Below are positions 9,059-46,752 of a stretch of DNA of 64,000 nucleotides, piece after piece (position 1 is the first letter of the stretch; each line of letters opens with the position of its first letter). The notes beneath the pieces were generated by a model. That model was not told the DNA's origin, did not search any database, and saw only the letters and a program-made list of their open reading frames with translations. The position numbers and the translations under genes were made by a program. The DNA comes from Saccharothrix ecbatanensis (GTDB taxonomy: Bacteria; Actinomycetota; Actinomycetes; Mycobacteriales; Pseudonocardiaceae): NCBI RefSeq assembly GCF_014205015.1, contig NZ_JACHMO010000001.1:6386001-6450000 (forward strand), given 5' to 3'.

Positions 9059-9120
9059 CGTGAGTCCTACGTTCAGGACGCGTGAGTCCTACGTTCAGAA
9101 CACCCGAATTCAACGCTCAG
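9059..9120 (-). repeat. Dispersed hairpin-unit repeat, copy R1 (head plus two units)
   Basis: Two 18-bp units CGTGAGTCCTACGTTCAG (9059-9076 and 9081-9098, period 22 bp) lead to a head CCGAATTCAACGCTCAG (9104-9120). Read on the minus strand it is head first, then units. The head faces the DUF4173-like gene to the right and is mirrored by copy R2 on its other side. Confidence 0.9.
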
Positions 9121-9173
9121 AACGCCTCCGCGCACTCGGCGGACGATGACGCATGCCCTGGAGGCAACACCCG

Positions 9174-10511
9174 ATGTCACCCAACCGTGCACTGCTCACC
9201 TGCGCCGCAGCCGGAATCGGAGGGGCCGTTCTCCTCCCCGACGGACCGGGCCTCGGCTGGTCGCTGACCGCCGCCGTCGTCTTCGCACTCCTGCGGAAAG
9301 TCAGACCGGTGTGGGCGGTGCTGTCGGTGGCGTTGTTCGCCGTCGGCGCGTTCGTCGCGGCGGAATGGCTCTTCGTGCTCTGCGCCTTGGCCGGGTGCGC
9401 CGCCGGATCACTCGCGGTCGTCGGGGGGCGGACCGCGCGTGGCCTGGTGTTCGGCGCCGGTGCCGTGCCGGTCGCGACAGTGTGGGCGCTGCCGTGGGTG
9501 GCACGCGGTGTGAAGGAACGGGGAACGCCGCCGATGACGCGCCCCATCCTGGTGACGGTCGGGCTGCTGCTGGTGTTCGTGCCGCTGCTCGCCGGGGCCG
9601 ACGCGGCGTTCGCGGACCTGCTCAGCTTTGTCATTCCCGAGGAATCGGCTGGCCGGCCGATCACGCTGTTCCTGTCGGTCGCTTTCCTCACGGTCGGCGC
9701 GTGCTACCTGCTCGCCTCACCAGTCGACTTGGACGGGACGGCCGTCCTCCCCCGCACGGTTGCGCGGCGTGACTGGGTGCTGCCCGTGGGCGCGTTGGTG
9801 CTGCTCTTCGCCGCGTTCGTGGCCGTGCAGATCACGACCCTCTTCGCGGGCGACGAGCACGTGATCACCACGGCCGACCTCACGTACGCCGACCACGCGC
9901 GCGGCGGCTTCTGGCAACTGCTGGCCGTCACCGTGCTGACCCTGTGCGTGATCGCCATGGTCGCCCGCCTGGCCCAGCTCGACTCACCCACCGACCGCCA
10001 GTGGCTGCGCGTCCTGCTCGGTGCGCTCAGCGTGCTGACGCTGGTGATCGTCGCCTCCGCCCTCACGCGCATGTGGCTCTATCAGCAGGCTTACGGGTTC
10101 ACGGTCCTCCGCGTCCTCGTCTCGGCATGCGAGCTGTGGCTTGGCGTGGTGTACCTGCTGGTCCTGGCCGCGGGCGTGCGGCTGGAAGGCGCGTGGCTGG
10201 CACGTGCCGTCGTGGGCACGGGGTTCGCCGCGCTCCTCGGGCTGGCCGCGCTCAACCCGGACCGGTTCATCGCCGAGCGCAACATCGAACGCTGGCACGC
10301 CACTTACAAGATCGACATCCGGTACCTGAGCCGGCTGTCCGACGACGCCGTGCCCGCCCTCGCCTCGCTCCCGCCGGAACTGCGCGACTGCGCCCTGGCC
10401 TACCGCCGCGTCCCGGCCGACGACTGGCGCGCGTGGAACCTCGGGCGGCAGAACGCCCGGACCACCCTCGCCGAGATCGAGAATCTCTGGTGCACACGTT
10501 CTGAGCGTTGA
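9174..10511 (+). CDS. Polytopic membrane protein, DUF4153/DUF4173-like
   Basis: Integral membrane protein of 445 aa with about ten hydrophobic segments. The segment VLSACELWLGVVYLLVLAAGV and the downstream LAALNPDRFIAERNI match the actinobacterial DUF4153/DUF4173 family, which often sits beside two-component genes. The soluble C-terminus carries LSRLSDDAVPALASLP and WRAWNLGRQNAR, also typical of the family. ATG 9174 has TGGAGG at 9159-9164. The function is unknown. The gene follows the kinase gene by about 120 bp and lies between inward-facing copies R1 and R2 of the dispersed repeat. Its last codons (Ser-Glu-Arg-stop) are contributed by the R2 head. Confidence 0.82.
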   Translation: MSPNRALLTCAAAGIGGAVLLPDGPGLGWSLTAAVVFALLRKVRPVWAVLSVALFAVGAFVAAEWLFVLCALAGCAAGSLAVVGGRTARGLVFGAGAVPVATVWALPWVARGVKERGTPPMTRPILVTVGLLLVFVPLLAGADAAFADLLSFVIPEESAGRPITLFLSVAFLTVGACYLLASPVDLDGTAVLPRTVARRDWVLPVGALVLLFAAFVAVQITTLFAGDEHVITTADLTYADHARGGFWQLLAVTVLTLCVIAMVARLAQLDSPTDRQWLRVLLGALSVLTLVIVASALTRMWLYQQAYGFTVLRVLVSACELWLGVVYLLVLAAGVRLEGAWLARAVVGTGFAALLGLAALNPDRFIAERNIERWHATYKIDIRYLSRLSDDAVPALASLPPELRDCALAYRRVPADDWRAWNLGRQNARTTLAEIENLWCTRSER

Positions 10512-10584
10512 ATTCGGGGGTCCTGAACGTAGGACTCACGGGGTCTGGAGGTTCGACACGCGGGACCTGGGGGTTCGACTCGCG
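10501..10584 (+). repeat. Dispersed hairpin-unit repeat, copy R2 (head, one good unit, two diverged units)
   Basis: The head CTGAGCGTTGAATTCGGGGG (10501-10520) and unit TCCTGAACGTAGGACTCACG (10521-10540) match the other copies. The following roughly 44 bp keep the G-rich...GTTCGAC...CGCG pattern with a period near 22 bp and look like diverged units. The head supplies the TGA stop of the preceding gene. Confidence 0.85.
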
Positions 10585-10586
10585 CG

Positions 10587-10629
10587 GAGGGGAAGGGTGG
10601 GAGGGGGGCGGGATGGGTACGGGAGGGGG
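10587..10629 (+). other. G-run tract with quadruplex potential in the mscS-like leader
   Basis: Nine runs of three or more G occur in about 43 bp on the coding strand, separated by one to three bases. The tract ends about 40 bp before the start codon of the mechanosensitive channel gene. It fits the canonical four-tract G-quadruplex pattern several times over. Confidence 0.6.
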
Positions 10630-10670
10630 AACGTCCGGATCCGGAAGAGTGGAAGTGGAGGTGCCCGTCC

Positions 10671-11810
10671 GTGCTCGCAGCCGTCCTCACGTTCACCGGC
10701 TCGCTGCTCGTCGCACTGCTCGCCGTCACGCTCGTCCACCGGGTGGTCCAGCGCATCGGCCGCCGGTCCGCCCTGTTCGAGGGCCTCGCCCGGCACGCGC
10801 ACAAGCCCGCGGTGGCCATGGCGGTCCTGGTGGCGGTGCAGTTCTCGCTGAGCGTGTCGGCCCGCGGCGACTGGCGACCGACCGCCCTGCACGCCACGGG
10901 CATAGCGCTGATCCTCGCCGGCGCGTGGCTGCTCGCCGCACTGCTCGTGGTGATCGAGGACGCGACGCTGGCACGCATCAGGGTCGACGTGTCGGACAAC
11001 CGCCACGCCCGACGCGTGCACACGCAGATCACGTTGGTGCGCCGGGTCACCGTCGTGATCGTCAGCGTCCTGGCAGCCGCCGCCGTGCTGATGACGTTCC
11101 CCGGCGCACGTGCCGCCGGAACGAGCCTGCTGGCGTCCGCCGGTGTCATCGGCGCCATCGCCGCACTCGCGGCGCAGTCCTTGCTGGGCAACGTCTTCGC
11201 CGGCGTCCAGATCGCGTTCAGCGACGCGCTGCGGCTGGACGACGTGGTGATCGTGGAGAAGCAGTGGGGCCGGATCGAGGACATCACCCTCACCTACGTG
11301 GTCGTGCACCTGTGGGACGACCGGCGCCTGATCCTGCCCACCGCCTACTTCCTCAAGTGCCCGTTCGAGAACTGGACGCGCACGCAGTCGGCGCTGCTCG
11401 GCACGGTGGAGCTGGACCTCGACTGGACCGTGCCGGTGGAGGAACTGCGGCACGAGCTCCGACACGCGCTCGAAGGCAGCGACCTGTGGGACGGCCGGGT
11501 GTCGGTGATGCAGGTGACGGACGCGGTCGGGTCGTTCGTGCGGGTCCGTGCCCTGGTGAGCGCGTCGGACGCGGGCCGGCTGTGGGACCTGCGGTGCGTG
11601 GTGCGCGAGCACCTGGTCGGCTGGCTGCGGGCGCACCACCCCGGTTCGCTGCCGCAGGTGCGGGTGCGCGACCTGCCCCGGGCCACCGACCACGCGCCGG
11701 TGCCGACCATGCACGAATCGTCCGACAACCGCGTGTTCGGCGAGAGCGCGGACGGTGAAGAGCGCGTGCAGGCGTTCAGCGGACCCGACCAGCCCGTGCA
11801 ACCCCGCTGA
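10671..11810 (+). CDS. MscS-family mechanosensitive channel-like protein
   Basis: Membrane protein of 379 aa. About four transmembrane segments precede the pore-lining helix GVIGAIAALAAQSLLGNVFAG (residues about 158-178), then the MscS beta domain begins (DALRLDDVVIVEKQWGRIEDITLTYVVV). PTAYFLKCPFENWTR is the conserved end of that domain, and an alpha/beta cytoplasmic domain follows. It probably opens on membrane tension and releases solutes. GTG 10671 is preceded by GGAGG at about 10657. The last 40 residues are polar and variable. The leader contains repeat R2 and a strong G-run tract. Confidence 0.9.
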   Translation: MLAAVLTFTGSLLVALLAVTLVHRVVQRIGRRSALFEGLARHAHKPAVAMAVLVAVQFSLSVSARGDWRPTALHATGIALILAGAWLLAALLVVIEDATLARIRVDVSDNRHARRVHTQITLVRRVTVVIVSVLAAAAVLMTFPGARAAGTSLLASAGVIGAIAALAAQSLLGNVFAGVQIAFSDALRLDDVVIVEKQWGRIEDITLTYVVVHLWDDRRLILPTAYFLKCPFENWTRTQSALLGTVELDLDWTVPVEELRHELRHALEGSDLWDGRVSVMQVTDAVGSFVRVRALVSASDAGRLWDLRCVVREHLVGWLRAHHPGSLPQVRVRDLPRATDHAPVPTMHESSDNRVFGESADGEERVQAFSGPDQPVQPR

Positions 11811-11858
11811 CCTCGACTTCCGTCCTTGTGATGGCAGGATCGCTCCACGGGAGGGTGC

Positions 11859-12260
11859 ATGCGGAGACTCGTACTACCGGTGCTGGCAGGGCTGGCGCTG
11901 GCGGGCTGCGGCGACCGGCAGGACACCGGTTCCCACCCCGTCCTCACGATCCCGACCAGTGCGATCTCGGAGGTCCAAGTGGTCCCGAAGCTGAGCCCAC
12001 AGGGCAAGGACGTGCTCGAACAGGCCAAGCGCTCGGGCGTGAAGACCGTCGTGCTGACCGTCGCCACCGAGCGGGACAAGACCGATCAGGTGGCCGCCGG
12101 CCTGCGACGCCTGGGCGGCACCGTGGAGGCCACCGACACCACGATCGGCTACGTCCGCGTGTCCGTCCCGGTCGATCTGGCCGAGCAGGTGACGGCGATC
12201 GAGGGCATCAGCCGGGTGGACGTCGACGAACCGTTGTCCAACATCGACCCCACCCCGTAG
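11859..12260 (+). CDS. Small lipoprotein resembling a subtilase propeptide (I9-like)
   Basis: Predicted lipoprotein of 133 aa. The lipobox LALAGC places the lipidated Cys at residue 17. The mature domain (about 55-128) reads VLTVATERDKTDQVAAGLRR, then LGGTVEATD, YVRVSVPVDLAEQV and ISRVDVDEPL. The N-terminal propeptide of the neighbouring subtilase shows the same order: VTLLVAAEEGKLD, LKGLGGVVEST, YLKVSVPRDKAEQ, VNAVDVDGLV. The two segments look homologous, so this appears to be a free-standing, membrane-anchored propeptide-like domain. Such domains can inhibit or chaperone a subtilisin. Inhibition of the convergent protease is an inference from similarity and adjacency. Confidence 0.8.
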   Translation: MRRLVLPVLAGLALAGCGDRQDTGSHPVLTIPTSAISEVQVVPKLSPQGKDVLEQAKRSGVKTVVLTVATERDKTDQVAAGLRRLGGTVEATDTTIGYVRVSVPVDLAEQVTAIEGISRVDVDEPLSNIDPTP

Positions 12261-12285
12261 ACCACGGACAAGACCACGCACAAAA

Positions 12286-12324
12286 CTCAGGGCCACCCCC
12301 GCGCGAAGCGGAGGTGGCCCTGAG
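12286..12324. terminator. Bidirectional terminator between lipoprotein and subtilase genes
   Basis: A 12-bp perfect stem (CTCAGGGCCACC, 12286-12297, with 12313-12324) and a 15-nt loop lie between the convergent stops at 12260 and 12340. Confidence 0.8.
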
Positions 12325-12339
12325 GTCGATCAGGTGGCG

Positions 12340-15582: not shown

Positions 15583-15838
15583 GGCGCAAACCCTTCGTGG
15601 GGAAAGATTGGCGCAAGCACATCTCTCCGACCACCGGGTGACAATCGGGCGAATGGCCCCAATGACAAGTCCACATTGGACTGATCGGGCTATTGCGCAA
15701 ACGCGCGAGAAGTGCCGCACAACTCCGGAACGGGTGCGACTACTCCAGTCAAGAGCCGACCGGCCGGAATGTCAAACACTGTCAACGGTGAACCGCTCGG
15801 AAGCGTGGGAAATCCGTAACAAATCGCACATCAACGCG

Positions 15839-16669: not shown

Positions 16670-16885
16670 TCGACTTCGGACCGTCACCGCCGGCGCTGAC
16701 GCTCCGTAGTGATGCCTGCCACGCCGGGGGTAATCCGGGGAACACCCACCGGACACCCCCCGTTCTACTGTTGGTCGGCAAGTGGACGCCGCACCGGACG
16801 TCAGGCCCCGCAGGCACCACCCCCCAATGCCCGCGAGGCAACCTCTCCCCGAGACGTTGCAGGTTGCGCCCACGCACACCCGACC

Positions 16886-16925: not shown

Positions 16926-16960
16926 CTTTACTTGGGTCACCGGTAATCGGTAGCCGCAGC

Positions 16961-17434: not shown

Positions 17435-17505
17435 CGTGACCACTCCCTAAAGTGAATCTTCTTCAACTCTCGTCCACCACGCGCACTTCGATCTAGACTC
17501 GCCCG

Positions 17506-24277: not shown

Positions 24278-25957
24278 ATGGCGGAGCAGACACAGCAGAC
24301 GCAGCTGGAACGGCTGCGCGCGCAGGAGATCGACCTGGTGCTGACGGACGCGCAGAACTGGGCGTCCCGGTCGCACCGCGAGCTGTACGAGGCGGTGCAC
24401 AACAACAACGACCCGGGCCAGACCGGTGAGATCGGCTCCGAGTGGGGCCAGTTCGGCACCGAGCTCACCGAGTCCGCGCGGCTGATCACCGAGCGGGTGG
24501 CGGTCAGCGAGTCCGGGTGGACCGGTGCGGCGGCGGACGCCGCGCGGCTCGCGATCAAGGGCCTGGCCGACTGGGTGACGCACACCGCCGAGACCGCGGT
24601 CGAGGTCGGCAAGCGGGTGCAGGACCAGAGCCAGATCATGGAGAACGCGCGGGCGAGCATGCCCGAGCCGGTCGAGTTCAACTGGGACCAGGCCACCGGG
24701 GCGTTCACGGCGGGCGGCATCGCCGGGTTCGCGGCTTCCGCCACGGACATGCAGGCGGCCAACGACAAGGCGCGGGCGTCGCACGAGCACGCCGTGACGG
24801 TCATGAGCACGATGGAGAACGAGTCGCGGGCGGTCGACCAGACCACGCCGCGGTTCACCGCCCCGTTCAACCCGGTCACCGGTCGGACCGAGGAGCCGCC
24901 GGCCATGCTGATGCGGGCCCTGATCGTGGAGGGCGGGAGCGGCGGTGGTGGTGGCGGCGGCGGTGGCGCTGCTGGTGCCGGTGATGCCGGTGGCACCGCG
25001 CCTTCGAACTTCCTGACGGCGACGCAGCAGGGCAGGCAGGCCGAGGCGGCGCAGCCGATGACGTCCGCGCAGGCCGCGACGTACACGCCGGCGGCCACGG
25101 CTTCGACCCCGACCAGTACGTACACAGGCCCGGCCGGTGCCTATGCGGGTGGTGGCGGCGGGACGTACACGAGCGGCAGCCCCACGTCTGCCGGCGTGGC
25201 GCCGAGCCCGGCGATGTACCGGCCCGAGGGCACCACGGCTGCCGCGGCGGCGGCGCAGGTTCCCGTGGCCAACCCGTACACGCCGCCGTCCAGCGCGCCC
25301 TACACGCCGTCCGGTACCGGCTACACGCCTCCCGGCAGTGGTTACACGCCTCCGGGCAGTGGTTATGTGCCGCCGTACCAGCCGGCCAACCCGAACGCCG
25401 TGCCGCGCCAGGGCGGTGGCACCCTGCCTCCCGGCGTGAAGCCGCCGAACTACGTCCCGGCCGGCACCCCGGGCACCCCCGGCACGCCTCCGTTGCCCGG
25501 CGGCGGTCCTGGAGGCGGTCCTGGAGGCGGCGGCGGTGGTCGGCTGCCGATGGGCGGTATGCCTCCCGGCGGCTTCGGCGGCGCTACCGGTGCCGGTGGC
25601 GCTCCGGGCTTCGGCGGCGCTCCGGGCTTCGGCCCGACAGGATCAGGTGGTGCGGGCGGTGCCGGTGGGTCACTCGCCGCGGGTGGTTCGACCGGCGCGG
25701 TCGGTGGTCCGGGTGGTCCCGGCGCCCGTGGCGCGATGCCGGTCGGCGGGTTCGCTCCCGGTGGCGCGGGCGCGGCCGGGATGCCGATGGCCGGGGCGCC
25801 GGCCGGTGCCCCGGCGGGCGGTCAGCAGGGTGAGGACAAGGAGCACCGGACCGCCGCGTACCTCCGCGGTGAGGACATCTTCGAGGTGCCGGGCGAGCAC
25901 CTGCCGCCGTCGGTGATCGGTGGCGCGAAGCCGCGCAAGAAGGGCGACCAGCCGTGA
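24278..25957 (+). CDS. PPE/WXG100-like ESX-type secreted protein with Gly/Pro-rich tail
   Basis: Protein of 559 aa. The helical N-terminal domain (about 1-190) carries a WxG-like turn, ESGWTGAAADAARLAI (about 79-94), in the position found in WXG100 and PPE proteins, and long amphipathic helices. The remaining roughly 350 residues are low complexity: poly-Gly near 228-236, then GYTPPGSG repeats and Gly/Ala/Pro-rich segments. The last 40 residues regain order (EHRTAAYLRGEDIFEVPGEHLPPSVIGG), a conserved ending in related actinobacterial proteins. Export through a type VII system is likely by family. No EccC, EccD or MycP gene lies in the window, so the machinery must be elsewhere. Confidence 0.8.
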   Translation: MAEQTQQTQLERLRAQEIDLVLTDAQNWASRSHRELYEAVHNNNDPGQTGEIGSEWGQFGTELTESARLITERVAVSESGWTGAAADAARLAIKGLADWVTHTAETAVEVGKRVQDQSQIMENARASMPEPVEFNWDQATGAFTAGGIAGFAASATDMQAANDKARASHEHAVTVMSTMENESRAVDQTTPRFTAPFNPVTGRTEEPPAMLMRALIVEGGSGGGGGGGGGAAGAGDAGGTAPSNFLTATQQGRQAEAAQPMTSAQAATYTPAATASTPTSTYTGPAGAYAGGGGGTYTSGSPTSAGVAPSPAMYRPEGTTAAAAAAQVPVANPYTPPSSAPYTPSGTGYTPPGSGYTPPGSGYVPPYQPANPNAVPRQGGGTLPPGVKPPNYVPAGTPGTPGTPPLPGGGPGGGPGGGGGGRLPMGGMPPGGFGGATGAGGAPGFGGAPGFGPTGSGGAGGAGGSLAAGGSTGAVGGPGGPGARGAMPVGGFAPGGAGAAGMPMAGAPAGAPAGGQQGEDKEHRTAAYLRGEDIFEVPGEHLPPSVIGGAKPRKKGDQP

Positions 25958-26709
25958 TCGAGCCCGAGTTCGTGCTCACGCCGCGACAGCTGGACGTGCT
26001 GTGGCACCACCTCGACCTGGGCCGGCTGCCGTACCCGCTGGACGTGCCGAGCCTCGGCGCCACGGAAGAAGAGCGTCAGCGGCTGCGGGAGGAGGTGCTC
26101 GCGGAGTACGGCGAGCCCGATCCCCGGCTGGTGGCGTCGCTCCGGCTGCTCGGCGATCACGAGGTGGCGGTGGACGCGGTCGCCCACATCGACCGCGCGG
26201 TGCGGGCGGTGGCCGTGTCCGACGGTGAGCGGGGCGCGTTGGCGCTGATCGACAGCGGTTCGGTCGGCGTGCTGGAGATCCGGCCGACCGCGTTGGCCCG
26301 GTCGATCGTGGACGTGCTGCCGGACGGGTCGGCGGGGCCGGGCAGCGCGCTGTCGCTGCGGCTGGAGGCGTTGACCGCGGCGGCGCAGGAGGAGCCGGAG
26401 GACGACGAGGACGACCCGTGGGGCGGCGGGGAGCTGGACGAGCGGGAGGCGTTGCAGAAGGCCGGGTTGTCGCGCGAGGACGCGACGGTGGTCAGCGAGT
26501 TGGCCGGCAGCCGGGTCGCCGGTGGCCAGTTCGGGGTCACCGTCGGCGCCGGCTACCGGCGGGACCGGGCCGCGGCGCTGATCACGTGGTTCGACACCCA
26601 CCAGGGCCGCTACCTGATGGTGAGCGAGGACGGCTGGCTCAGCCTCGCCCCCACCGACAACGACCGCATCGCCACCCGGATCGCCACCCTCCTAGCCTCC
26701 GTCACCTAA
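25954..26709 (+). CDS. espG: EspG-family ESX secretion chaperone-like protein
   Basis: Cytoplasmic protein of 251 aa of the EspG type, which binds PPE-family substrates and delivers them to the ESX machinery. The N-terminus FVLTPRQLDVLWHHLDLGRLPYPL, the central GERGALALIDSG and VLEIRPTALARSIVDVLP strands, and the C-terminal GQFGVTVG and ITWFDTHQGRYLM segments match the family. An acidic loop (EEPEDDEDDPWGGG, about 148-161) is in the middle. The GTG start overlaps the stop of the PPE-like gene (GTGA), consistent with coupled synthesis of chaperone and client. The symbol reflects family membership, not orthology to a specific mycobacterial EspG. Confidence 0.82.
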   Translation: MIEPEFVLTPRQLDVLWHHLDLGRLPYPLDVPSLGATEEERQRLREEVLAEYGEPDPRLVASLRLLGDHEVAVDAVAHIDRAVRAVAVSDGERGALALIDSGSVGVLEIRPTALARSIVDVLPDGSAGPGSALSLRLEALTAAAQEEPEDDEDDPWGGGELDEREALQKAGLSREDATVVSELAGSRVAGGQFGVTVGAGYRRDRAAALITWFDTHQGRYLMVSEDGWLSLAPTDNDRIATRIATLLASVT

Positions 26710-26718: not shown

Positions 26719-26824
26719 CGTGAGTCCTACGTTCAGAACGCGCGAGTCGTACGTTCAGAACGCGCGAGTCCTACGTTCAGGACCACCGTGTCCTACGTTC
26801 AGGACCCCCGAATTCAACGCTCAG
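26719..26824 (-). repeat. Dispersed hairpin-unit repeat, copy R3 (head plus four units)
   Basis: The largest copy. Units start near 26719, 26741, 26763 and 26785 (period 22 bp), with head CCGAATTCAACGCTCAG at 26808-26824. It fills the gap between the convergent espG-like and imine-reductase-like genes, and its head provides the TGA of the latter. It faces copy R4 at 30089. Confidence 0.92.
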
Positions 26825-27687
26825 GACGCGGGCGACGACCGGAACCGCTCGACCAGCCGCGAGTAGCTGTCGTCCCCGTGCCCGTCCTCGACCACCGCAC
26901 GCACCAGCCGCAAGGTGTACGACGGGAACTCGTCGTCGATCCCCCGATCACGGCTCTCCCGCACCAGGTCCGCCACGGCCGGCAAGTGGTGCTTCAACGC
27001 CCCGAACGGCACCGCGTACTCGCCCCGGTCCACCTCCTCCGCCAACGACGGCAGGTACCCGAGCAACCCGCTCAACGACGCCGTCGCGTGCTCCAGGAAC
27101 CGCTTCACCTCGACGCCCTCGCTCGACAGCAACGCCGCCGCGTGCAGGAACCCGTTGAGCGTCCCCCACATCGTGTCGTTCATGGCCAACCCGAACAGCG
27201 CCGGCGTCCCCGCGTCGTCACCGAGGTAGGCCCCACGCCCACCCAACAACGACAGCACCTCACGATGACGCTCGTAGGCCGCCGAGTCACCGCCGTAGAA
27301 CACGACCGAGTCGGCATGCCCGATCGCCGGCGCGATGGTCATGATCTGCCCGTGCACGTACGCCGCGCCCTGATCGGACACCCGGGCGGCCAAGTCCCGC
27401 GCCTCACCGGACGTCCCATCGGTCAGGTTGACCACCACCCGCCCGTCCAGTGACCCGGCCGACGCCAGGATCGCCCGCACGGCGTCGTTCCCCTTGACGT
27501 TCACCACCACGAGATCACTCTCCGCGACGGCCTCCGCCACGGACCCCGCACGCACCGCACCCTCCGCCACCAACGCGTCGGCCTTGCCGGCAGTGCGGTT
27601 CCACACCGTGGTCCGCTGCCCACCCGCCAGGAACGCGGCGGCCAACGCGGACCCCATCTCTCCCAAACCCAACACAGTCACAGTCAT
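26821..27687 (-). CDS. Imine reductase-like NAD(P)-dependent oxidoreductase (6PGDH/HIBADH superfamily)
   Basis: Cytoplasmic enzyme of 288 aa, the usual size for imine reductases. The N-terminal Rossmann motif is VLGLGEMGSALAAAFLAGG followed by VWNRTAGKA, where the NRT signature suits NADPH. GRVVVNLTDGTSGEARDLA and the MTIAPAIGHADSVVFYGG region match imine reductases. The C-terminal helical domain has NDTMWGTLNGFLHAAALLSS. Imine reductases are dimers that reduce cyclic imines in vitro, while natural substrates are mostly unknown. ATG 27687 lies directly after a MerR-type promoter and has no clear ribosome site, so the message may be leaderless. The stop codon falls in repeat R3. Confidence 0.85.
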   Translation of the reverse strand: MTVTVLGLGEMGSALAAAFLAGGQRTTVWNRTAGKADALVAEGAVRAGSVAEAVAESDLVVVNVKGNDAVRAILASAGSLDGRVVVNLTDGTSGEARDLAARVSDQGAAYVHGQIMTIAPAIGHADSVVFYGGDSAAYERHREVLSLLGGRGAYLGDDAGTPALFGLAMNDTMWGTLNGFLHAAALLSSEGVEVKRFLEHATASLSGLLGYLPSLAEEVDRGEYAVPFGALKHHLPAVADLVRESRDRGIDDEFPSYTLRLVRAVVEDGHGDDSYSRLVERFRSSPAS

Positions 27688-27694
27688 GCCGGCG

Positions 27695-27725
27695 ACGCTA
27701 AAACCTCGACTAAACTTGAGGTCAA
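27695..27725 (-). promoter_or_regulatory. MerR/SoxR-type promoter and operator of the imine-reductase-like gene
   Basis: The 20-bp dyad ACCTCGACTAAACTTGAGGT (27703-27722) matches the SoxR-like consensus CCTCAAGTTAACTTGAGG closely. On the minus strand TTGACC (27725-27720) and TAGCGT (27700-27695) are separated by 19 bp, the elongated spacer typical of MerR-activated promoters. Transcription would begin near the ATG. Confidence 0.7.
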
Positions 27726-27932
27726 GCATCGCCCCAGTGGCATTCCGGGACGTCGTGATCACCCGCCCGAGCCGCCGCCGAAGGCCGCTAAGCTCACTGC
27801 GCCCCAACGGCCCACCCCTTACACCATCCGAGTGATAATGGGCCGGAATTCGCACGTCGGAGTACCACTGTGATCACTTCACGCGATACGTCGAAAACAG
27901 GGTGCCCCATGACGATTGGCCGACAGAGCTGA

Positions 27933-30041
27933 ATGAGAATGGTCGAACAGGCAGGCGCGGCGCGACTCGGTGACGAACCCGGGGAATCCTCGGCGACCCG
28001 GTTCGCGTGCGGTTGGGCCGCCGCCATCACACCCACCGCCCCCTCGGCCGCCGACCTGCCGCGTCCCCTGCTGGAGGCGTTGCTCGCCGGTTTCACCGAC
28101 GACCTGCGCACCGCGCTCCGGCACGATCGCCCCACGTCCGCGCGCCGGGTCGGCCGCGGCCTGGTCGAGCACGGCCTGGCGTCCGCCGAGACGCTGGAGC
28201 GGACGATCGCGTTCGTCGGCGAACACCTGACGACCGACCTGATTGCCGGCCACAAACACCTGATCGCCGTACTCGGAGCGCTTGCCGCCGGATTCAGTGA
28301 CGCTCTGCGCACCAAAACGCGGGAACAGAACGCGGCAAACTCCACCCGATCAGTCGAATCCGCCGTACGAACGGGTGAAGCGAAGTTCCGGGCCGTATTC
28401 CAGACCTCGGCGCTCGCCATCGCGGTATCCGACGTGAACGGCCTGATCCTCGACTGCAACGAGGCGTTGCTCGCCATGCTCGACCGCACCGCCGAGGAAC
28501 TCGTCGGGACGGTCTCGCGCGACTTGGTGCACCCCGACGAACGCGACGTGATCTCGCACGTCGCCCAGCAGTTGTCCGCCGGGCGCGAGCACGTGCGCAT
28601 GGAGACGCGGCTGGTCCGGGCGGACGGCGAGGCCGTCGACGTGCTCATCGCGTTGGCCTTATTGCGTGACGACGACGGCGCGCCCGCGTTCTACGTCACG
28701 ATGATCGAGAGCCTGGACGAGCTCCGCGCGCTCCAGGCGCAGTTGCTCCGGCAGAGCCTGCACGACATGCAGACCGGCCTGGCGAACCGGGCGCAGTTCG
28801 TCGGCTGGCTGGAGGGCGCGGTCGGCTCCATGGGACCCGCGACGCTCGCGCTGGTCGTGTTCGACCTCGACGGGTTCCGGGTGGTCAACGACGCGTTCGG
28901 GCACGAGGTCGGCAACCTCATCCTGGCCGCCGTCGCCGGGCACCTGCGCTCGGTGTTCGACGGGATCGGGCAGCTGGCCCGGATCGGCCCGGACGAGTTC
29001 GGCGTGCTGATCCGCGACCCGGCCGACGTGCCGACCGTGGTGGCGCTCGCCGAGTCGGCCGTCGAACGGCTCGCGGAACCGGTGTGGGTGGGCGATGACG
29101 GCATCGGCGTGACGGCCAGCGTCGGCATCGTCGTGCAGGCCGCGCGCGGGGCGGACGCGGTCGACTTGCTGCGGTGCGTCGACCTGACCGTGCGGTGGGC
29201 CAAGGACGACGGCAAGGCGCAGTGGGCGCTCTACGACCACGGCCGTGACCAGCGCGAACGTGCGCGGATGCGGTTGGCCGCGTCCATCTCGGGCGGGTTG
29301 GAGCAGGGCGATTTCCGGGTCGACTACGAGCCGGTGTACTCGCTGGCGGACGGGTCGCTGCTGGCCGTCGAGGCGCGGTTGCGGTGGGACCACCCGACGG
29401 AAGGGCTGCTGGACCCGCAGACGCTGGTGTCGCTGTCGACGTGCACCGGGATGGTGGTGCGGCTCGGGGAGTGGGCGATCGGGCAGGCGTGCGCCGACGC
29501 CGGCCGTTGGCACGCCGAGTTCGGGTCGGCGGCGCCGGTGCTGAGCATGGACCTGAGCGCGCGGCAGTGCCAGGAGCCGGAGCTGGTGGCGACCGTGCGG
29601 CGGGCGTTGCGGGAGAGCGGGCTGCCGGCCGCGATGCTCCAGTTCGAGCTGGGCGAGCAACTGCCCGCGTTGATCAGCGACGACCAGGTGGACGAGCTGA
29701 CGTTCCTGGCGGATCACGGGGTGCGGCTGGTGCTCGACCAGGTCGGTGGCGGCAACGTGCCGGTGGACCGGCTGCGGCGGATCCCGTTGAGCGGGGTGAA
29801 GTTCCAGGGTGCGCCGGTGTACGGGCTGGCGGAGGGCGCGAACCGGATCGACGAGAGCGCGGCCGTGACGCTGCTCAACTGGACGCGGACGTTGAGCATT
29901 CCGGTGTACGCGGCGGGTGTGCGCACGGAGTTCGAGGCGCGGCGGTTGGCGGAGCTGGGCGTGACGGGGGCGCAGGGGCCGCTGTACGGGTCGTCGTGGC
30001 TGACGTTCGACGAGGTGTCCGCGCTGCTCGGCCGGTCGTGA
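27933..30041 (+). CDS. PAS-GGDEF-EAL protein with degenerate cyclic-di-GMP motifs
   Basis: Soluble protein of 702 aa. An N-terminal helical region (about 1-140) is followed by PAS (about 145-265), GGDEF-like (about 270-435) and EAL-like (about 445-700) domains. The cyclase signature is GPDEF (352-356) instead of GGDEF, although DLDGFRVVND is kept. The EAL domain looks inactive: EAR (480-482) replaces EAL, SMDLSARQ replaces the N-containing SVNLSARQ, LDQVGGGN replaces LDDFGTG, and VKFQGAP replaces the LKIDRSF-type strand. The protein may therefore bind or sense c-di-GMP, or signal through contacts. Copy R4 of the dispersed repeat lies 48 bp downstream. Confidence 0.88.
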   Translation: MRMVEQAGAARLGDEPGESSATRFACGWAAAITPTAPSAADLPRPLLEALLAGFTDDLRTALRHDRPTSARRVGRGLVEHGLASAETLERTIAFVGEHLTTDLIAGHKHLIAVLGALAAGFSDALRTKTREQNAANSTRSVESAVRTGEAKFRAVFQTSALAIAVSDVNGLILDCNEALLAMLDRTAEELVGTVSRDLVHPDERDVISHVAQQLSAGREHVRMETRLVRADGEAVDVLIALALLRDDDGAPAFYVTMIESLDELRALQAQLLRQSLHDMQTGLANRAQFVGWLEGAVGSMGPATLALVVFDLDGFRVVNDAFGHEVGNLILAAVAGHLRSVFDGIGQLARIGPDEFGVLIRDPADVPTVVALAESAVERLAEPVWVGDDGIGVTASVGIVVQAARGADAVDLLRCVDLTVRWAKDDGKAQWALYDHGRDQRERARMRLAASISGGLEQGDFRVDYEPVYSLADGSLLAVEARLRWDHPTEGLLDPQTLVSLSTCTGMVVRLGEWAIGQACADAGRWHAEFGSAAPVLSMDLSARQCQEPELVATVRRALRESGLPAAMLQFELGEQLPALISDDQVDELTFLADHGVRLVLDQVGGGNVPVDRLRRIPLSGVKFQGAPVYGLAEGANRIDESAAVTLLNWTRTLSIPVYAAGVRTEFEARRLAELGVTGAQGPLYGSSWLTFDEVSALLGRS

Positions 30042-30088
30042 TCCCGAGAGCAGGCGCAAAAGCTCTGATCCCAGGCGTGACGGGTGTT

Positions 30089-30172
30089 CTGAGCGTTGAA
30101 TTCGGGGGTCCTGAACGTAGGACACGGTGGTCCTGAACGTACGACTCGCGGGTTCTGAACGTAGGACTCACG
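30089..30172 (+). repeat. Dispersed hairpin-unit repeat, copy R4 (head plus three units)
   Basis: The head CTGAGCGTTGAATTCGG begins at 30089 and three 22-bp units run to 30172. The unit order mirrors R3, except that the second unit joins the left half of R3 unit 2 to the right half of R3 unit 3. It lies between the GGDEF/EAL gene and the GNAT gene. Confidence 0.92.
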
Positions 30173-30185
30173 GCATAGTTGGGGG

Positions 30186-30668
30186 GTGGACGTTGAACTT
30201 CTGGCGGTCGCCGAGGCGGACAAACCCGTGCTGGCCAACCTGATCCAGCTGTACCAGCACGACTTCTCCGAGATCCGCGAGCTGCCGCTCACCCGGCACG
30301 GCACCTTCGGCTACTCCTACCTGGACCACTACTTCACCGAGCAGACGCGTGAGGCGTACTTCATCGAGGCGGGCGGCGAGTTGGCCGGGTTCGCGCTGGC
30401 CCGCGGCGACGTGGACCCGGACGGGTCGTGGAACGTCGCCGAGTTCTTCGTCGCCCGCGGCCACCGGCGGAAGGGGGTGGCACGGGAAGCGGCACGCCTG
30501 CTGTTCGCCCGCCACCCCGGCGTCTGGACCTTGAACTTCGACCACGCCAACACCGCCGCCGCGGCGTTCTGGCCGTCCGTCACCGCGTCCGTCGCGACCG
30601 GGCCCGTGGAGGAGGTCGACGTGTTCGAGGAGGTGCCCTGCACGCGCCTGAGATTCCGGGTGGGCTGA
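30186..30668 (+). CDS. GNAT-family N-acetyltransferase
   Basis: Acetyl-CoA-dependent acyltransferase of 160 aa. The fold shows the expected order: an N-terminal helix (DKPVLANLIQLYQHDFSEI), a beta strand AYFIEAGGELAGFALA, then motif A EFFVARGHRRKGVAREAARL with the Q/R-x-x-G-x-A phosphate loop, and NFDHANTAAAAFW corresponding to motif B. The acceptor substrate is unknown. The GTG start at 30186 is preceded by a G-run that can serve as ribosome site, 14 bp after repeat R4. The gene is convergent with the cyclase-like gene, whose stop lies 12 bp away. Confidence 0.88.
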   Translation: MDVELLAVAEADKPVLANLIQLYQHDFSEIRELPLTRHGTFGYSYLDHYFTEQTREAYFIEAGGELAGFALARGDVDPDGSWNVAEFFVARGHRRKGVAREAARLLFARHPGVWTLNFDHANTAAAAFWPSVTASVATGPVEEVDVFEEVPCTRLRFRVG

Positions 30669-39924: not shown

Positions 39925-39945
39925 CCCGCGGCACGGCGCGCTGGA

Positions 39946-39968
39946 CCCGTGCCGCACTCCGGCACGGG
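39946..39968 (+). terminator. Terminator of the metzincin gene
   Basis: The 9-bp stem CCCGTGCCG (39946-39954)/CGGCACGGG (39960-39968) closes a 5-nt loop, 21 bp past the stop. Confidence 0.7.
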
Positions 39969-40068
39969 CCCAGGCGGTGTTTCGGAAGTCTTCGCTGGTG
40001 CCAGGCGCTCAGGGCTCTGCTGTTGCCCCGATCACCTTCAGTTGATCTCCAGTATGGTCGAGGTTTAG

Positions 40069-40269
40069 TCGTACGAAGTCGTGCACGTGCTCTTCATCCG
40101 GCCGGACGTGGCCGCGGTCAAAGTCCGCCGGCGGTACTTCTCCCTGGAGGGCGAGCCGCTGACCGAGGAGGGTGAGGGCACCCCGATGTACGTGATGTCC
40201 AAGGAGGGCGGCCAGTGGCGTTTGACCGCCAACCAGAACACGGCCGTGCCGGTCGAACGAGCGAGCTGA
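40069..40269 (+). pseudogene. C-terminal remnant of an NTF2-like (SgcJ/EcaC, SnoaL-type) protein
   Basis: About 66 codons read SYEVVHVLFIRPDVAAVKV, then RRRYFSLEGEP, ending TPMYVMSKEGGQWRLTANQN and TAVPVERAS. This looks like the last two or three strands of an NTF2-like protein of the SgcJ/EcaC type, whose usual length is about 130 residues. A TAG at 40066 stops the frame just upstream, and no N-terminal half is visible in any frame between the metzincin terminator and this point. A GTG at 40081 could start a 62-aa peptide, but truncation is the simpler view. It is convergent with the acyl-CoA dehydrogenase gene. Confidence 0.6.
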
Positions 40270-40301
40270 ACCCGATCTGCCGGACACGGCCTGGGCATCG
40301 G

Positions 40302-41459: not shown

Positions 41460-41462
41460 CGT

Positions 41463-43379: not shown

Positions 43380-43384
43380 TGCCC

Positions 43385-44989
43385 TCACATCCGGAAGACG
43401 CCGTAGGAAACCGGCTCGATCGGGGCGTTCGCCGCCGTGGACAGGGCCAGGCCGAGCACCATGCGCGTGTCGAGCGGGTCGATCACGCCGTCGTCCCACA
43501 GCCGGGCCGTGGAGTAGTACGGGTTGCCCTGGTCTTCGTACTGCTGCCGGATCGGCGCCTTGAACGCCTCTTCGTCCTCCGCGGACCACGCGTCGCCGAG
43601 CTGGTCGCGCCGCACCGTCGCCAGCACGGACGCCGCCTGCTCACCGCCCATCACCGAGATCCGCGCGTTGGGCCACATCCACACGAACCGGGGCGAGTAC
43701 GCCCGCCCGCACATCGAGTAGTTGCCCGCGCCGAAAGACCCGCCGATGACCACGGTGAACTTCGGCACGCGGGCGCACGCCACCGCCGTCACCATCTTCG
43801 CGCCGTGCTTGGCGATGCCCGCCGCCTCGTACTCCCGGCCGACCATGAACCCGCTGATGTTCTGGAGGAACACCAGCGGCACGCTGCGCTGGTCGCACAG
43901 CTGGATGAAGTGCGCGCCCTTCAACGCCGACTCGCCGAACAGCACGCCGTTGTTGGCGACGATGCCGACCGGGTGGCCGTGGATCCGGGCGAACCCGGTG
44001 ACCAGCGTCGCGCCGTACTCCTTCTTGAACTCCTGGAACCGGCTGCCGTCCACGATCCGCGCGATCACCTCGCGCACGTCGTACGGCGTGCGGCTGTCCG
44101 TCGGCACGACCCCGTACAGCTCGGCGGGGTCGACGGCCGGCTCGACCGGCGGCTCGACCTGCCACGGACGCGGAGCGCGCGGCCCCAGCGTGCTGACGAT
44201 CGAACGCACGATCCGCAGCGCGTGCGCGTCGTCCTCCGCCAGGTGGTCCGTGACGCCGGACGTGCGCGAGTGCAGCTCGCCGCCGCCCAGCTCCTCCGCC
44301 GTGACGACCTCGCCGGTCGCGGCCTTCACCAGCGGCGGGCCGCCGAGGAAGATCGTGCCCTGGCCGCGCACGATCACCGCTTCGTCCGACATCGCGGGCA
44401 CGTACGCGCCGCCCGCCGTGCAGGAGCCGAGGACGGCGGCGATCTGCGGGATGCCCCGGCTGGACATGGTGGCCTGGTTGAAGAAGATCCGGCCGAAGTG
44501 CTCGCGGTCCGGGAACACCTCGTCCTGCCTGGGCAGGAACGCGCCGCCGGAGTCGACCAGGTAGACGCACGGCAGGTTGTTCTGCAACGCCACCTCTTGG
44601 GCGCGCAGGTGCTTCTTCACCGTCATCGGGTAGTACGTGCCGCCCTTGACGGTGGCGTCGTTGGCGACGACGACGACCTCACGGCCGGAGACGCGGCCGA
44701 CGCCCGTGATGACGCCCGCGGCGGGCGCTTCGTCGCCGTACATGCCATCGGCGGCGAGCGGTGACAGTTCGAGGAACGGCGAACCGGGGTCCAGCAGCGT
44801 GTCCACCCGGTCACGGGGCAGCAGCTTGCCGCGCTCGACGTGCCGGGTGCGCGCCTTCTCCGGACCGCCGAGCGCGGCGGCGCCGAGCTTGGCGCGCAGG
44901 TCGTGGACGAGCCGGGTGTGGTCGTCGTGGTAGCGCCGGAAGGCGTCGGCCGACTTGTCGGCCGTGCTGCGCAGCACCGGGGCGTCCAT
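43385..44989 (-). CDS. accD1: Acyl-CoA carboxylase beta subunit (carboxyltransferase, 3-methylcrotonyl-CoA type)
   Basis: Carboxyltransferase of 534 aa with two crotonase-like halves. [67 protein letters not shown] and the C-terminal [20 protein letters not shown] are characteristic of 3-methylcrotonyl-CoA carboxylase beta subunits; the GGSFGAGNY motif binds acyl-CoA. It is the first gene of the accD1-accA1-acyl-CoA dehydrogenase operon. Two copies of a 16-bp palindrome sit 14 and 40 bp upstream of the start, also found before the TetR gene at 46089, so repression by that regulator is likely. Confidence 0.93.
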
Positions 44990-45002
44990 CGGGCTCCTCG
45001 CG

Positions 45003-45018
45003 GTTAGCAGTCGTTAAC
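45003..45018. promoter_or_regulatory. TetR-type operator 1 upstream of the carboxylase operon
   Basis: GTTAGCAGTCGTTAAC fits the local consensus GTTARC-N4-GTTWAC. It lies 14 bp before ATG 44989. Confidence 0.65.
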
Positions 45019-45028
45019 CCAAGGAGAT

Positions 45029-45044
45029 GTTAGCGCCTGTTAAC
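45029..45044. promoter_or_regulatory. TetR-type operator 2 upstream of the carboxylase operon
   Basis: GTTAGCGCCTGTTAAC is a second copy, with its centre 26 bp from operator 1, suggesting two dimers bound on the promoter. Confidence 0.65.
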
Positions 45045-45057
45045 GCCGGTTCACAAG

Positions 45058-45089
45058 CCGAAGGGGGCCGCGCCTGCGGCCCCCTTCGG
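45058..45089 (-). terminator. Strong hairpin terminator after the SGNH esterase gene
   Basis: A 14-bp perfect stem (CCGAAGGGGGCCGC, 45058-45071, with 45076-45089) and a GCCT tetraloop lie 22 bp beyond the stop. It insulates the carboxylase promoter from read-through. Confidence 0.85.
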
Positions 45090-45110
45090 ATCACGTCAAG
45101 CCCTAAGGGC

Positions 45111-45899
45111 TCAGCCCGTGACGGCGTTGAGCTGCGGCAGGTAGCCGAGGCGCTGGCCGTTGCGGTTCGGGTGGTAGGACTCCTCCACCGGCCAGGACAG
45201 GCTGTTCAGCCACCAGTCCCCCGAGCAGATCTCGTGCCCGGTGAACGCGCCGCGCAGGTCGCGGTAGGAGAACGCCTTGGCGCCCGCCCGTGCGGAGATG
45301 ACCTGGTGCAACGTGTCGGAGGCCGAGTTGATGGCCGAGCGCTTGGTGTCGCTCAGGCCGACCGAGCAGCTGCCCGGCACCTTGTACAGGCGCGGGTAGC
45401 CCAGCACGACGACCCTGGCGGACGGCGCACGGCTGCGGATCTGCGTGTAGACGTTGTCGAGCAGGCCGGGCAGGGTGTTCGTCGCGTACGCCTTCGCCTG
45501 GTTGACCCGGTTGATGCAGGTCGAGTCGGAGCCGAAGGTGCAGGTGGTGATCACGTCGGTGAACCCGGCGTCGTTCCCACCGATCGAGATGCTGACCAGG
45601 GACGTGGCCGAGGTGAGCGCGCTGACCTGGTTGTTCAGCACGTCACCGGTCCTCGCGCCGGAGCAGGCGACGAACTTGAACGACGTCGGCGCGTGCGACG
45701 CGGCCCAGAGGGCCGGGTAGCTGTACGGGCTGCGTTTGCAGCCGCCGGAGTCGCCGTAGTACGAGCCGGTGCCCGTTCCGGACGAGTAGGAGTCGCCAAG
45801 CGCGACGTAGTTCGCGCCGGCCGCTTCGGCCGGCACGACGAGTGCGAGCGAAGCGGCTAACGCCAGCGCGGCGGTGGACAGGATTCGGACAAGGCGCAT
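45111..45899 (-). CDS. Secreted SGNH/GDSL-family lipase or esterase
   Basis: Exported 262-aa hydrolase of the actinobacterial SGNH group (related to Streptomyces secreted esterases and phospholipases). The signal peptide covers about 1-27 and ends in AEA. Block I is VALGDSYSSGTGTG with the nucleophile Ser, block II gives the oxyanion Gly, block III is SIGGNDAGF with Asn, and block V is YHPNRNGQ with the catalytic His. Six Cys probably form three disulfides, as in the family. ATG 45899 has GGGAGG upstream. A palindrome GTTACCAGCAGGTAAG (45950-45965) upstream loosely resembles the TetR operators nearby. It should hydrolyse lipid or short acyl esters outside the cell. Confidence 0.92.
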   Translation of the reverse strand: MRLVRILSTAALALAASLALVVPAEAAGANYVALGDSYSSGTGTGSYYGDSGGCKRSPYSYPALWAASHAPTSFKFVACSGARTGDVLNNQVSALTSATSLVSISIGGNDAGFTDVITTCTFGSDSTCINRVNQAKAYATNTLPGLLDNVYTQIRSRAPSARVVVLGYPRLYKVPGSCSVGLSDTKRSAINSASDTLHQVISARAGAKAFSYRDLRGAFTGHEICSGDWWLNSLSWPVEESYHPNRNGQRLGYLPQLNAVTG

Positions 45900-46040
45900 C
45901 GGAGCCTCCCGGAGGGAAACAACGCAGGGTGATGCGGAACACGTCAAGTGTTACCAGCAGGTAAGGCTGCTTAAGAAGAGTGGGTCAAGAGTTAACTACG
46001 TGTTTCGCGGTCCGGTTGGTGATCTTCCGGCGACCACGCG

Positions 46041-46056
46041 GTTAACGGACGTTTAC
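46041..46056. promoter_or_regulatory. TetR-type operator overlapping the TetR gene promoter
   Basis: GTTAACGGACGTTTAC matches the carboxylase operators. It overlaps a possible -35 (TTACGC, 46053-46058); a TAAGAT -10 at 46076-46081 follows, giving a start near GTG 46089. This fits autoregulation. Confidence 0.6.
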
Positions 46057-46088
46057 GCGTGCCGGGCCTGCCGTTTAAGATGGGCGGC

Positions 46089-46664
46089 GTGCCAGCCGAG
46101 ACAGCGAAGCAAAACCGCCGGGACCAGATCCTGGCCGCCGCCGCCGAACTGTTCGCCCGGCACGGCTTCCACGGCGTCGGAATCGACGATATCGGTGCAG
46201 CGGTGGGGATTTCCGGGCCGGCGCTGTACCGGCACTTCCGCAGCAAGGACGCGATGCTGGGCGAGATGTTGACGTCCATCAGCGAACGGCTGCTGGAAGG
46301 CGGCCAGGCCAGGGTGGCGGCGTCCAGCGACCCGGAACACGCACTACGGGAACTGATCCGGTGGCACGTCGATTTCGCGCTGGACGACCCCGCGTTGATC
46401 ACCGTGCAGATTCGCAACCTGGCCAACTTGACCGACCCGGACCGGCGGCGGGTGCGAGCGCTCCAGCGCCGTTACGTCGAGGTGTGGGTGGAGATGATCC
46501 GCAAGACCTCGCCCGAGGTGGACGAGCCGACCGCCCGTGCCGCGGCGCACGCCGTCTTCGGCCTGATCAACTCGACCCCGCACAGCGCCCACCTGGACCG
46601 GGACCAGATGGCCACCCTGCTCTCGCAGATGGCCCTGGCGTCGTTGTCCGGCGCCCTGCCGTAG
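46089..46664 (+). CDS. TetR-family transcriptional regulator (BkaR/Rv2506-like by context)
   Basis: Repressor-type protein of 191 aa. The N-terminal HTH reads RRDQILAAAAELFARHGFHG, then VGIDDIGAAVGISGPALYRHF and RSKDAMLGEML, a textbook TetR DNA-binding domain. The C-terminal ligand-binding region is helical, with HALRELIRWHVDFALDDPALI and VQIRNLANLTDPDRRRVRAL. The neighbouring fadE19-accA1-accD1-like operon matches the mycobacterial region controlled by the TetR regulator Rv2506 (BkaR), and shared palindromes support local control. An acyl-CoA from branched-chain amino acid breakdown is the likely ligand. GTG 46089 suits a leaderless start; ATG 46080 and GTG 46059 are in-frame alternatives. 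Confidence 0.88.
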   Translation: MPAETAKQNRRDQILAAAAELFARHGFHGVGIDDIGAAVGISGPALYRHFRSKDAMLGEMLTSISERLLEGGQARVAASSDPEHALRELIRWHVDFALDDPALITVQIRNLANLTDPDRRRVRALQRRYVEVWVEMIRKTSPEVDEPTARAAAHAVFGLINSTPHSAHLDRDQMATLLSQMALASLSGALP

Positions 46665-46690
46665 TGCTCCGAACGTCCGAACCTCGCGTT

Positions 46691-46752
46691 CCGAGCGTTG
46701 AATTCGGGGGTCCTGAACGTAGGACTCACGGGTTCTGAACGTAGGACTCGCG
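46691..46752 (+). repeat. Dispersed hairpin-unit repeat, copy R5 (head plus two units)
   Basis: Head CCGAGCGTTGAATTCGGGGG (46691-46710), a TCCTGAACGTAGGACTCACG unit, then GGTTCTGAACGTAGGACTCG plus CG. It lies 26 bp after the TetR stop and 15 bp before the phospholipase fusion gene. No inverted partner is seen nearby. Confidence 0.92.

Follow-up and report, generated by a model that had tools for sequence, protein, structure and literature searches.

Arrays of a 22-bp unit behind genes of Saccharothrix ecbatanensis: shared sites, genome-specific wording and a possible role as gene-end boundary elements

A 64,000-nucleotide stretch of the Saccharothrix ecbatanensis genome, hereafter the window, carries a short repeated word at five places, which raises the question of what these arrays are and how they are maintained. 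All five copies first noted from the letters proved real, and we re-placed them by weight-matrix unit positions:

9059..9124, minus strand: half element, two units and a head; 7 bp 3' of the stop of a sensor histidine kinase gene (7906-9051, plus strand), with a DUF4153 gene next.
10497..10584, plus strand: half element, a head and three units (one of the main type, two of a third type); the stop of the DUF4153 gene (9153-10511, plus strand) lies inside the head.
26719..26828, minus strand: half element, four units and a head; between a convergent pair, EspG-like (25954-26709, plus strand) and reductive-aminase-like (26821-27855, minus strand).
30085..30172, plus strand: half element, a head and three units; 43 bp 3' of a PAS-GGDEF-EAL gene (27933-30041, plus strand) and 13 bp 5' of a GNAT gene (30186-30668, plus strand).
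46687..46752, plus strand: half element, a head and two units; 22 bp 3' of a TetR-type gene (46059-46664, plus strand) and 15 bp 5' of an acyltransferase-domain gene (46768-48924, plus strand).

With up to three mismatches, the 15-base unit core matched the window 14 times, against 1.26 expected from shuffles; 12 of these matches lie within the arrays, and the other two are three-mismatch matches elsewhere. The 17-base head core gave five matches against 0.21 expected. Rfam, at the gathering score, returned no match at the repeats, its single match in the window being a glycine riboswitch (61222-61318). The sequence-only reading had described five intergenic sites with one to four units each. 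The five sites stand, but they are not strictly intergenic, since two of the five heads contain a stop codon (TGA at 10509-10511 of the plus-strand ORF 9153-10511, in the 10497 array; TCA at 26821-26823, the stop of the minus-strand ORF 26821-27855, in the 26719 array), and the number of units beside the head in the window copies is two to four.

A genome-wide search revealed that the window copies are members of a large dispersed family, with 194 heads (up to three mismatches; reversed-pattern control, 0) and 208 exact unit cores (control, 0) in the 9.69-Mb genome. The repeat is modular, free of spacers and variable in unit number, as had been described, and neighbouring units start 22 bp apart in 161 of 165 cases. 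The same spacing was found in 114 of 114 cases in B-16314, and a spacing of 21 bp in 14 of 14 in G228. The 22-bp unit was correctly recognised, while the separate 20-bp head was not: the head (GTTCTGAGCGTTGAATTCGGGG) is a diverged copy of the 22-bp unit (GTTCTGAACGTAGGACTCGCGG) that starts about four bases earlier than had been described, so that head and units together make a single 22-bp array. In the 10497 copy, the final two units belong to a third type (GGTCTGGAGGTTCGACACGCG and similar). The conserved unit core is asymmetric, and the spacing is rigid while the spacer letters vary.

Position at the 3' ends of genes

Arrays were characterised in a sample of 864 kb of the 9.69 Mb (about 9% of the genome), where 41 clusters minus 8 single-unit clusters gave 33 arrays; gene models came from a purpose-made codon-usage caller. 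A 3' gene end flanks 32 of the 33. The median distance from array to nearest stop is 4.5 bp (32 arrays, the one divergent array being excluded) compared with 26.7 bp for random placement, and none of 5000 trials was as low. Gap classes were tested at three gene-calling settings against the 399-429 gaps that measure 60 bp or more. Convergent gaps, which number 64-69, hold 14-15 of the 33 arrays (excess, binomial p 7e-5 to 3e-4), and divergent gaps, numbering 111-122, hold one (deficit, p 2e-4 to 3e-4). Tandem settings account for 18 of 33 arrays at two of the three settings, and 5 of these 18 are closer to the next start than to the stop. Half arrays 3' of genes occur in both orientations. The layout recurs in another genus, where the L251 array sits between two stops, 1 bp from each. 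The idea of a three-frame stop-codon trap (22 mod 3 = 1) was considered and dropped, the period being 21 bp in other genera.

Two-arm arrays and the pairing of units

Both orientations of the unit are present in 17 of the 33 sampled arrays, 15 of them head to head. These 17 arrays (130-294 bp) have a mean folding z of about -15 on either strand and minimum free energies of -88 to -208 kcal/mol, and folding predictions indicate that they can form a very large hairpin from either strand. A GATCTTGT-type centre was counted by eye in 12 of 18 two-headed loci and is found in both orientations. The other 16 arrays have a single orientation and fold weakly (mean z -1.7 head-to-units, -0.5 in the opposite sense). 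For convergent gaps, the median z of the best 60-nt window is -7.0 where two-orientation arrays are present (8 gaps) and -2.7 in the 55 gaps that have no array; the arrays therefore occupy a position where ordinary gaps carry hairpins. Two-arm arrays show no convergent excess of their own, with 8 in convergent and 9 in tandem gaps.

The reading that we regard as best, while holding it tentatively, is that the arrays are rapidly homogenised gene-end boundary elements, the two-arm form of which could act as a bidirectional terminator. Arrays of the unit, which measures 22 bp and in some genera 21 bp, are set directly 3' of stop codons, and in the complete form two arms point outward around a short centre, such that RNA arriving from either side can fold into one very long hairpin. 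This would make transcription stop or pause, whichever side it comes from, and would protect 3' ends. The half elements, including those of the window, would be reduced forms. Termination had already been one option of the sequence-only reading; it survives here on another ground, namely the two-arm hairpin, and not through the stem of the unit.

That stem had been the centre of the earlier proposal, in which each unit folds as a small hairpin in RNA and is under selection when read head-to-units, as judged from U-G wobbles in that sense. Across 83 distinct units (215 in total) of the S. ecbatanensis genome, 62% of the cells of the 5-bp stem are paired, whereas random reassignment of the 3' letters gives 64% on average, and 487 of 500 shuffles reached or exceeded the observed pairing. 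The stem shows no compensation, so that the argument from wobbles fails, and with it the proposal falls short by the sequence criterion that it had itself set. A stem between neighbouring units fared no better (116 distinct neighbour pairs, 66.9% versus 68.5%; 488 of 500 reshuffles do at least as well). The named register does pair better than registers slid by one to three positions (25-51%), which is no surprise, since the stem was taken from the consensus in the first place. Pairing (62% versus 60%) and folding (the z values above) are slightly better head-to-units, and arrays stand 3' of genes in both orientations. We consider the unit-hairpin proposal very improbable. Co-adaptation between arms was likewise rejected: arms match those of their own element worse (36.5) than those of different elements (44.8; 15 arrays), and so give no sign of pairing selection.

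A protein could read the DNA instead; a protein-binding array was among the options of the sequence-only reading, too. Two turns of the helix span roughly 21-22 bp, which would align the sites on one face, and an array bound by a DNA-binding protein would form a roadblock or domain boundary 3' of genes in either orientation, with dialects following changes of the candidate protein. The rigid spacing with variable spacer letters, the asymmetric core, the occurrence of half arrays 3' of genes in both orientations, and the absence of pairing selection within units, between neighbours and between arms are all consistent with such a lattice. Rigid spacing, however, is also produced by tandem duplication of units, and adjacent units in L313 are identical by score. 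We regard the binding lattice as unlikely, though worth keeping in view.

Shared sites, replaced wording and mobility

The wording of the arrays differs by genome, giving dialects, while the sites stay common to the related genomes compared; other Pseudonocardiaceae genera have the same design, with a period of 21 or 22 bp and wording of their own. Of the relatives' arrays, 66 lay 150 bp or more from a locus end, and for 12 of these both flanks found a match within the 864-kb sample (10 different G000 sites, one of them three times); in all 12 usable comparisons the site is also occupied in S. ecbatanensis. The ortholog was the best match (rank 1) in 2 of 12. A paralog from the array's own genome outscored it in 11 of 12, a count that favours the paralog by setting the best of about 31 against one ortholog, ranks being the fairer measure. 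A further set comprised 10 loci hand-picked among long matches, with two G000 arrays lacking anchors in two comparisons. A pairwise set of 12 pairs yielded 16 usable rows, which are 8 pair comparisons counted from both sides; 11 rows had no usable anchors and the pair L102/L115 gave no row. No empty site appeared in the 12 comparisons or the 16 rows, though unit content changes.

Two window sites were followed further. Among the matches listed, all 7 other genomes whose two flanks could be used have an array at the 26719 site, and at the 9059 site more distant genomes lack the array, yet show no clean empty site. Of the five matches of G066, three are listed. In other genera, no unit-like match (score at least 10) was found in L306, L307, L308 or L317 around the matches to the left gene of the 26719 site (G193, G214, G031).

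Shared sites with replaced content amount to concerted evolution into genome dialects. In the boundary-element reading, the sites are inherited and their content is overwritten from other copies within one genome, which keeps one dialect per genome; gene conversion among the copies would be the simplest route, and breakage at the long palindrome may be the trigger.

The main competitor is a short, selfish mobile repeat akin to REPINs or MITEs, whose enzyme would copy the two-arm palindrome and re-insert it at or into older copies, the post-stop location being merely where insertion does little harm. The high copy number (the 194 heads), the patchy spread (11 genus genomes with the exact core, 14 without), the long inverted arms with their GATCTTGT-type centre in both orientations and the avoidance of divergent gaps all suit this explanation. 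Against it stand the lack of any empty site despite changing unit content and the distribution of transposases. Y1_Tnp occurs in 5 of 25 genus genomes, 3 of the 11 with an exact core and 2 of the 14 without, and is absent from the array-rich G268, G215, G288 and G296. The locus of the single full-length Y1 ORF in S. ecbatanensis has one weak, lone unit-like match (score 13.7). As transposase presence does not track the arrays, a Y1/RAYT mobiliser, the only type examined, was rejected. Carriage by phages or plasmids is also unsupported: one 241-base two-arm stretch had no match at E 0.01 in plasmid and phage records, and two viral_contigs matches are lone, lie in AT-rich DNA and are without an array. 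We judge a selfish repeat somewhat unlikely.

A dedicated sequence-specific system, be it a nuclease, a recombinase or a binding protein that reads the 21/22-bp lattice, might drive the arrays to one wording, an idea that we think distinctly doubtful. If true, some Pseudonocardiaceae would possess self-renewing, genome-wide boundaries of transcription units, with a word that shifts as its reader does; bacteria would then have their own equivalent of satellite DNA and the proteins that bind it.

Relation to known systems

The usual explanation of dispersed bacterial repeats behind genes is that they are palindromes which a tyrosine transposase moves. The arrays share the gene-end position, yet they are non-palindromic, do not track Y1 transposase, and keep their places while their text changes. 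Keeping a site is thus separable from keeping a sequence, and culturable Saccharothrix offers a setting in which the concerted evolution of dispersed bacterial repeats can be tested. Should transcripts end at the arrays, many of the 3' ends in these genomes would be marked by a single repeat family. The portions of the literature covered, on these arrays, terminators, REP and uptake dialects, held no description of the arrays, and the main text of PMC3469384, in the portions covered, makes no mention of repeats, palindromes or terminators.

According to the portions of PMC3733652 and PMC3116915 covered here, REP, BIME and REPIN elements (GTAG- and CGTC-tagged families) occur in over 100 copies, mostly extragenic and downstream of genes in unidirectional or convergent gaps, opposite-orientation pairs can form larger hairpins, and CGTC families reportedly have no dedicated transposase. 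The arrays are similarly high-copy, extragenic and downstream of genes, and come in opposite-orientation pairs that should be able to form larger hairpins. They differ in that the unit is no palindrome under selection (the 5-bp stem is present in some units only), the 21/22-bp word stands in direct tandem arrays, and content is replaced genome-wide at shared sites; unlike the GTAG family with its cognate RAYT, they have no linked Y1 transposase. GTAG or CGTC does lie inside some dialect cores, but these offer no palindrome that it could tag, and further dialects read GTTG, GTAC or GTGG.

Bidirectional intrinsic terminators of convergent genes share the location and, with the 17 two-arm arrays, a strong hairpin on both strands. 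The arrays differ from them in being a repeated modular family, in showing no T-run behind the window copies on inspection by eye, and in including 16 half arrays without a strong hairpin. Like CRISPR arrays they consist of short direct repeats, but they have no spacers and keep a fixed 22-bp start-to-start distance. DNA uptake sequences are short repeats, often paired in terminators. Those of Neisseriaceae form lineage-specific dialects, according to the portions of PMC3630211 covered; on that description the arrays resemble them as a genome-spread repeat with lineage-specific wording, and differ in being 21/22-bp arrays where the uptake sequences are single short words.

Anatomy and genomic position of the arrays

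The five intergenic copies of a modular repeat that the sequence-only reading had picked out in the window are present and above chance. They are half elements, with units in one orientation, of a larger family. The window features are as follows.

9059-9124, reverse strand, array
10497-10584, forward strand, array
26719-26828, reverse strand, array
30085-30172, forward strand, array
46687-46752, forward strand, array
60416-60595, degenerate 12-bp repeat of CCGAACC type, inside the long forward-strand ORF 58950-61439
61222-61318, reverse strand, glycine riboswitch aptamer (62.9 bits, gathering score 32)

The 9.69-Mb contig contains 194 heads at up to three mismatches (99 forward, 95 reverse; none with the reversed-pattern control) and 208 exact unit cores (control, none). 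Of the proposed anatomy, one head plus n units, the modular array was retained and the separate head was not, since the head is itself a 22-bp unit that has diverged. In a weight matrix built from the fetched loci, the core TGARCGTWSRACWC is conserved and the 5' part of the unit varies. With the threshold set to admit about one false match in 200 kb on each strand of Markov sequence, 41 clusters were found in 864 kb of sampled sequence including the window, and leaving out eight single-unit clusters gave 33 arrays. Sixteen have a single orientation and 17 have both, 15 of the latter facing outward. The spacing is rigid (22 bp start to start in 161 of 165 neighbouring units), and the centre carries GATCTTGT or its reverse complement in 12 of 18 two-headed loci, counted by eye.

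Gaps were typed with our own gene caller at three settings, every gap of 60 bp or more serving as background. Convergent gaps hold 14-15 of the 33 arrays, tandem gaps 17-18 and divergent gaps one, compared with background counts of 64-69, 224-238 and 111-122, respectively. The nearest stop codon lies at a median of 4.5 bp (n = 32) versus 26.7 bp under random placement in the same gaps, a distance as low as that observed being reached in none of 5000 trials; eight of the 32 arrays overlap the stop. Thirteen of 18 tandem-gap arrays are closer to the stop than to the next start; two of the five exceptions are in the window (30085 and 46687). With dnaA at 7.44 Mb, and assuming a circular chromosome, 39 of the 51 exact heads fall in the half nearer the origin. 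No unit was found in the sampled stretches at 1-20 kb and 1.00-1.08 Mb, and the one at 3.50-3.58 Mb contained one lone unit only.

RNA pairing and folding

Selection on RNA through the unit stem, proposed earlier from changes that turn a C-G pair into a wobble, found no support: 62% of cells are paired in 83 distinct units versus 64% when re-dealt, and re-dealt pairing at least equalled the observed value in 487 of 500 shuffles. Slid registers pair in 25-51% of cells versus 62% in the named register, and a stem between neighbouring units is likewise unsupported.

For the 16 single-orientation arrays, folding is only slightly stronger than in shuffles (mean z -1.7 from head to units, -0.5 in the reverse sense); for the 17 two-orientation arrays the mean z is near -15 on both strands. 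Taking the best 60-nt window from each convergent gap of 40-420 bp, we obtained a median z of -2.7 without arrays (n = 55), -2.7 with one-orientation arrays (n = 4) and -7.0 with two-orientation arrays (n = 8). Arm likeness is 36.5 within one element versus 44.8 between elements (15 arrays), and a fraction of 0.9996 of the permutations equalled or exceeded the observed value. As the arms are less alike within than between elements, the hairpin follows from the layout, and the comparison gave no sign of pair-by-pair selection on it in these 15 arrays.

The placement of the arrays and their two-arm hairpin point to a bidirectional boundary at gene ends; that the units are phased rigidly at two turns, whichever way an array faces, points to a bound protein. 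The two roles may coexist.

Retained sites and replaced content

In 12 of 12 usable comparisons with relatives, covering ten sites (nine comparisons with B-16314, two with luteola, one with S26), the array site is also occupied in the source genome. Two stretches of B-16314 are syntenic to the window, and their four arrays correspond to the four window arrays of those regions. In eight pair comparisons among the relatives, sites are occupied in 16 of 16 usable rows, with differing unit numbers (e.g. three versus six, six versus nine). Occupancy does differ at larger distance: judged by eye, the 9059 site, which lies between tandem genes, carries an array in three of the 18 other genomes in which both flanks could be placed (G292, G127 and G268, taken as NRRL B-16314), and the convergent site at 26719 in seven of seven usable ones.

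Gene content varies among genomes at window positions 30041-30186 and orthologous sites. In four genomes (G292, G088, G127, G240) a gene-sized stretch separates the EAL gene from the region downstream of it, at the place of the source genome's array. The gap that holds the 9059 array in the source genome carries another short conserved stretch, about CCCCGCCCAGGGGAACCCTGAATTCAATTCAACCAC-CACCGACAATTCCG, in loci L132, L134, L135, L137, L140, L141 and L142, upstream of the DUF4153 orthologs; its forms occur in seven species, with more than one copy in G195 and G184.

Despite flanks 84-99% identical, the ortholog is the best source-genome match of the relative's array in two of 12 comparisons, ranking 18, 4, 1, 15, 7, 20, 5, 22, 8, 10, 23 and 1 among 32-33 arrays. 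The source-genome array scores higher with another array of its own genome in 11 of 12, a figure that uses the best of about 31, so that the ranks are the fairer measure. The array at 6212 of locus L116 is unchanged over all units. A copying process overwrites blocks inside retained sites. Gene conversion between copies would be the simplest such process; SbcCD cleaves long inverted repeats, and these cuts would set off repair. The rival is re-insertion at preferred sites. Y1 transposases occur in five of 25 genus genomes, three of the 11 that have the exact core and two of the 14 that lack it.

Unit wording differs among genomes: TAGGACTCA accounts for 36% of 215 source-genome units and 54% of 153 in B-16314, TAGGACTCT for 24% of 74 in S26, TAGGACACG for 27% of 79 in luteola and 36% of 50 in B-16348, and TAGGACACA for 42% of 52 in deserti.

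Range and known systems

All 65 named-genome stretches with the head-plus-unit pattern are from Saccharothrix, in a search that possibly excluded the source genome. The exact core occurs in 11 of 25 genus genomes, at 4 to 208 copies each. Genomes G143, G261 and G224 lack it, yet show one array each in the roughly 12 kb examined; no array was found in the 10-14 kb examined of G283, G274, G195, G184, G110, G232 and G255. Since a fixed-wording search misses other dialects, a zero count does not mean absence of arrays.

In other genera, degenerate cores reach high numbers in single genomes, with 85 in G148 and 24 in G257 (297 genomes searched) and 193 in G031 (397 searched); no genome outside Pseudonocardiaceae exceeded two copies in the 397-genome search. 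G214 has 183 cores in a private wording, which has no copy in the other g16 genomes of the sample. Loci of G031, G148, G228, G257, G130, G193, G259 and G214 contain arrays that repeat every 21 or 22 bp and are often inverted and close to stop codons. When a sequence that includes one window array was used as BLAST query, its part 757-877 was matched repeatedly in G031, G148, G193, G228, G257 and G130; the six matches in G085 and the three listed out of five in G066 lie outside this part. Three G214 loci (L042, L230, L257) contain very long degenerate 21-bp arrays of type GAACGTGGGGTTCGG. Locus L213 of G031 has two large outward-facing blocks of near-identical 22-bp units immediately after a stop codon, which takes the two-arm design to an extreme.

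No description of such arrays was found in the literature covered, which includes only a minority of subscription journals. REP elements resemble the arrays in copy number, in position and in their inverted pairs (PMC3733652, PMC3116915). The REP unit, however, is palindromic, and the GTAG families are associated with RAYTs. Neither feature was borne out here, and we therefore do not class the arrays as REP elements, though they may act like BIMEs. For one wording per lineage, the nearest parallel is offered by the uptake-sequence dialects of Neisseriaceae (PMC3630211).
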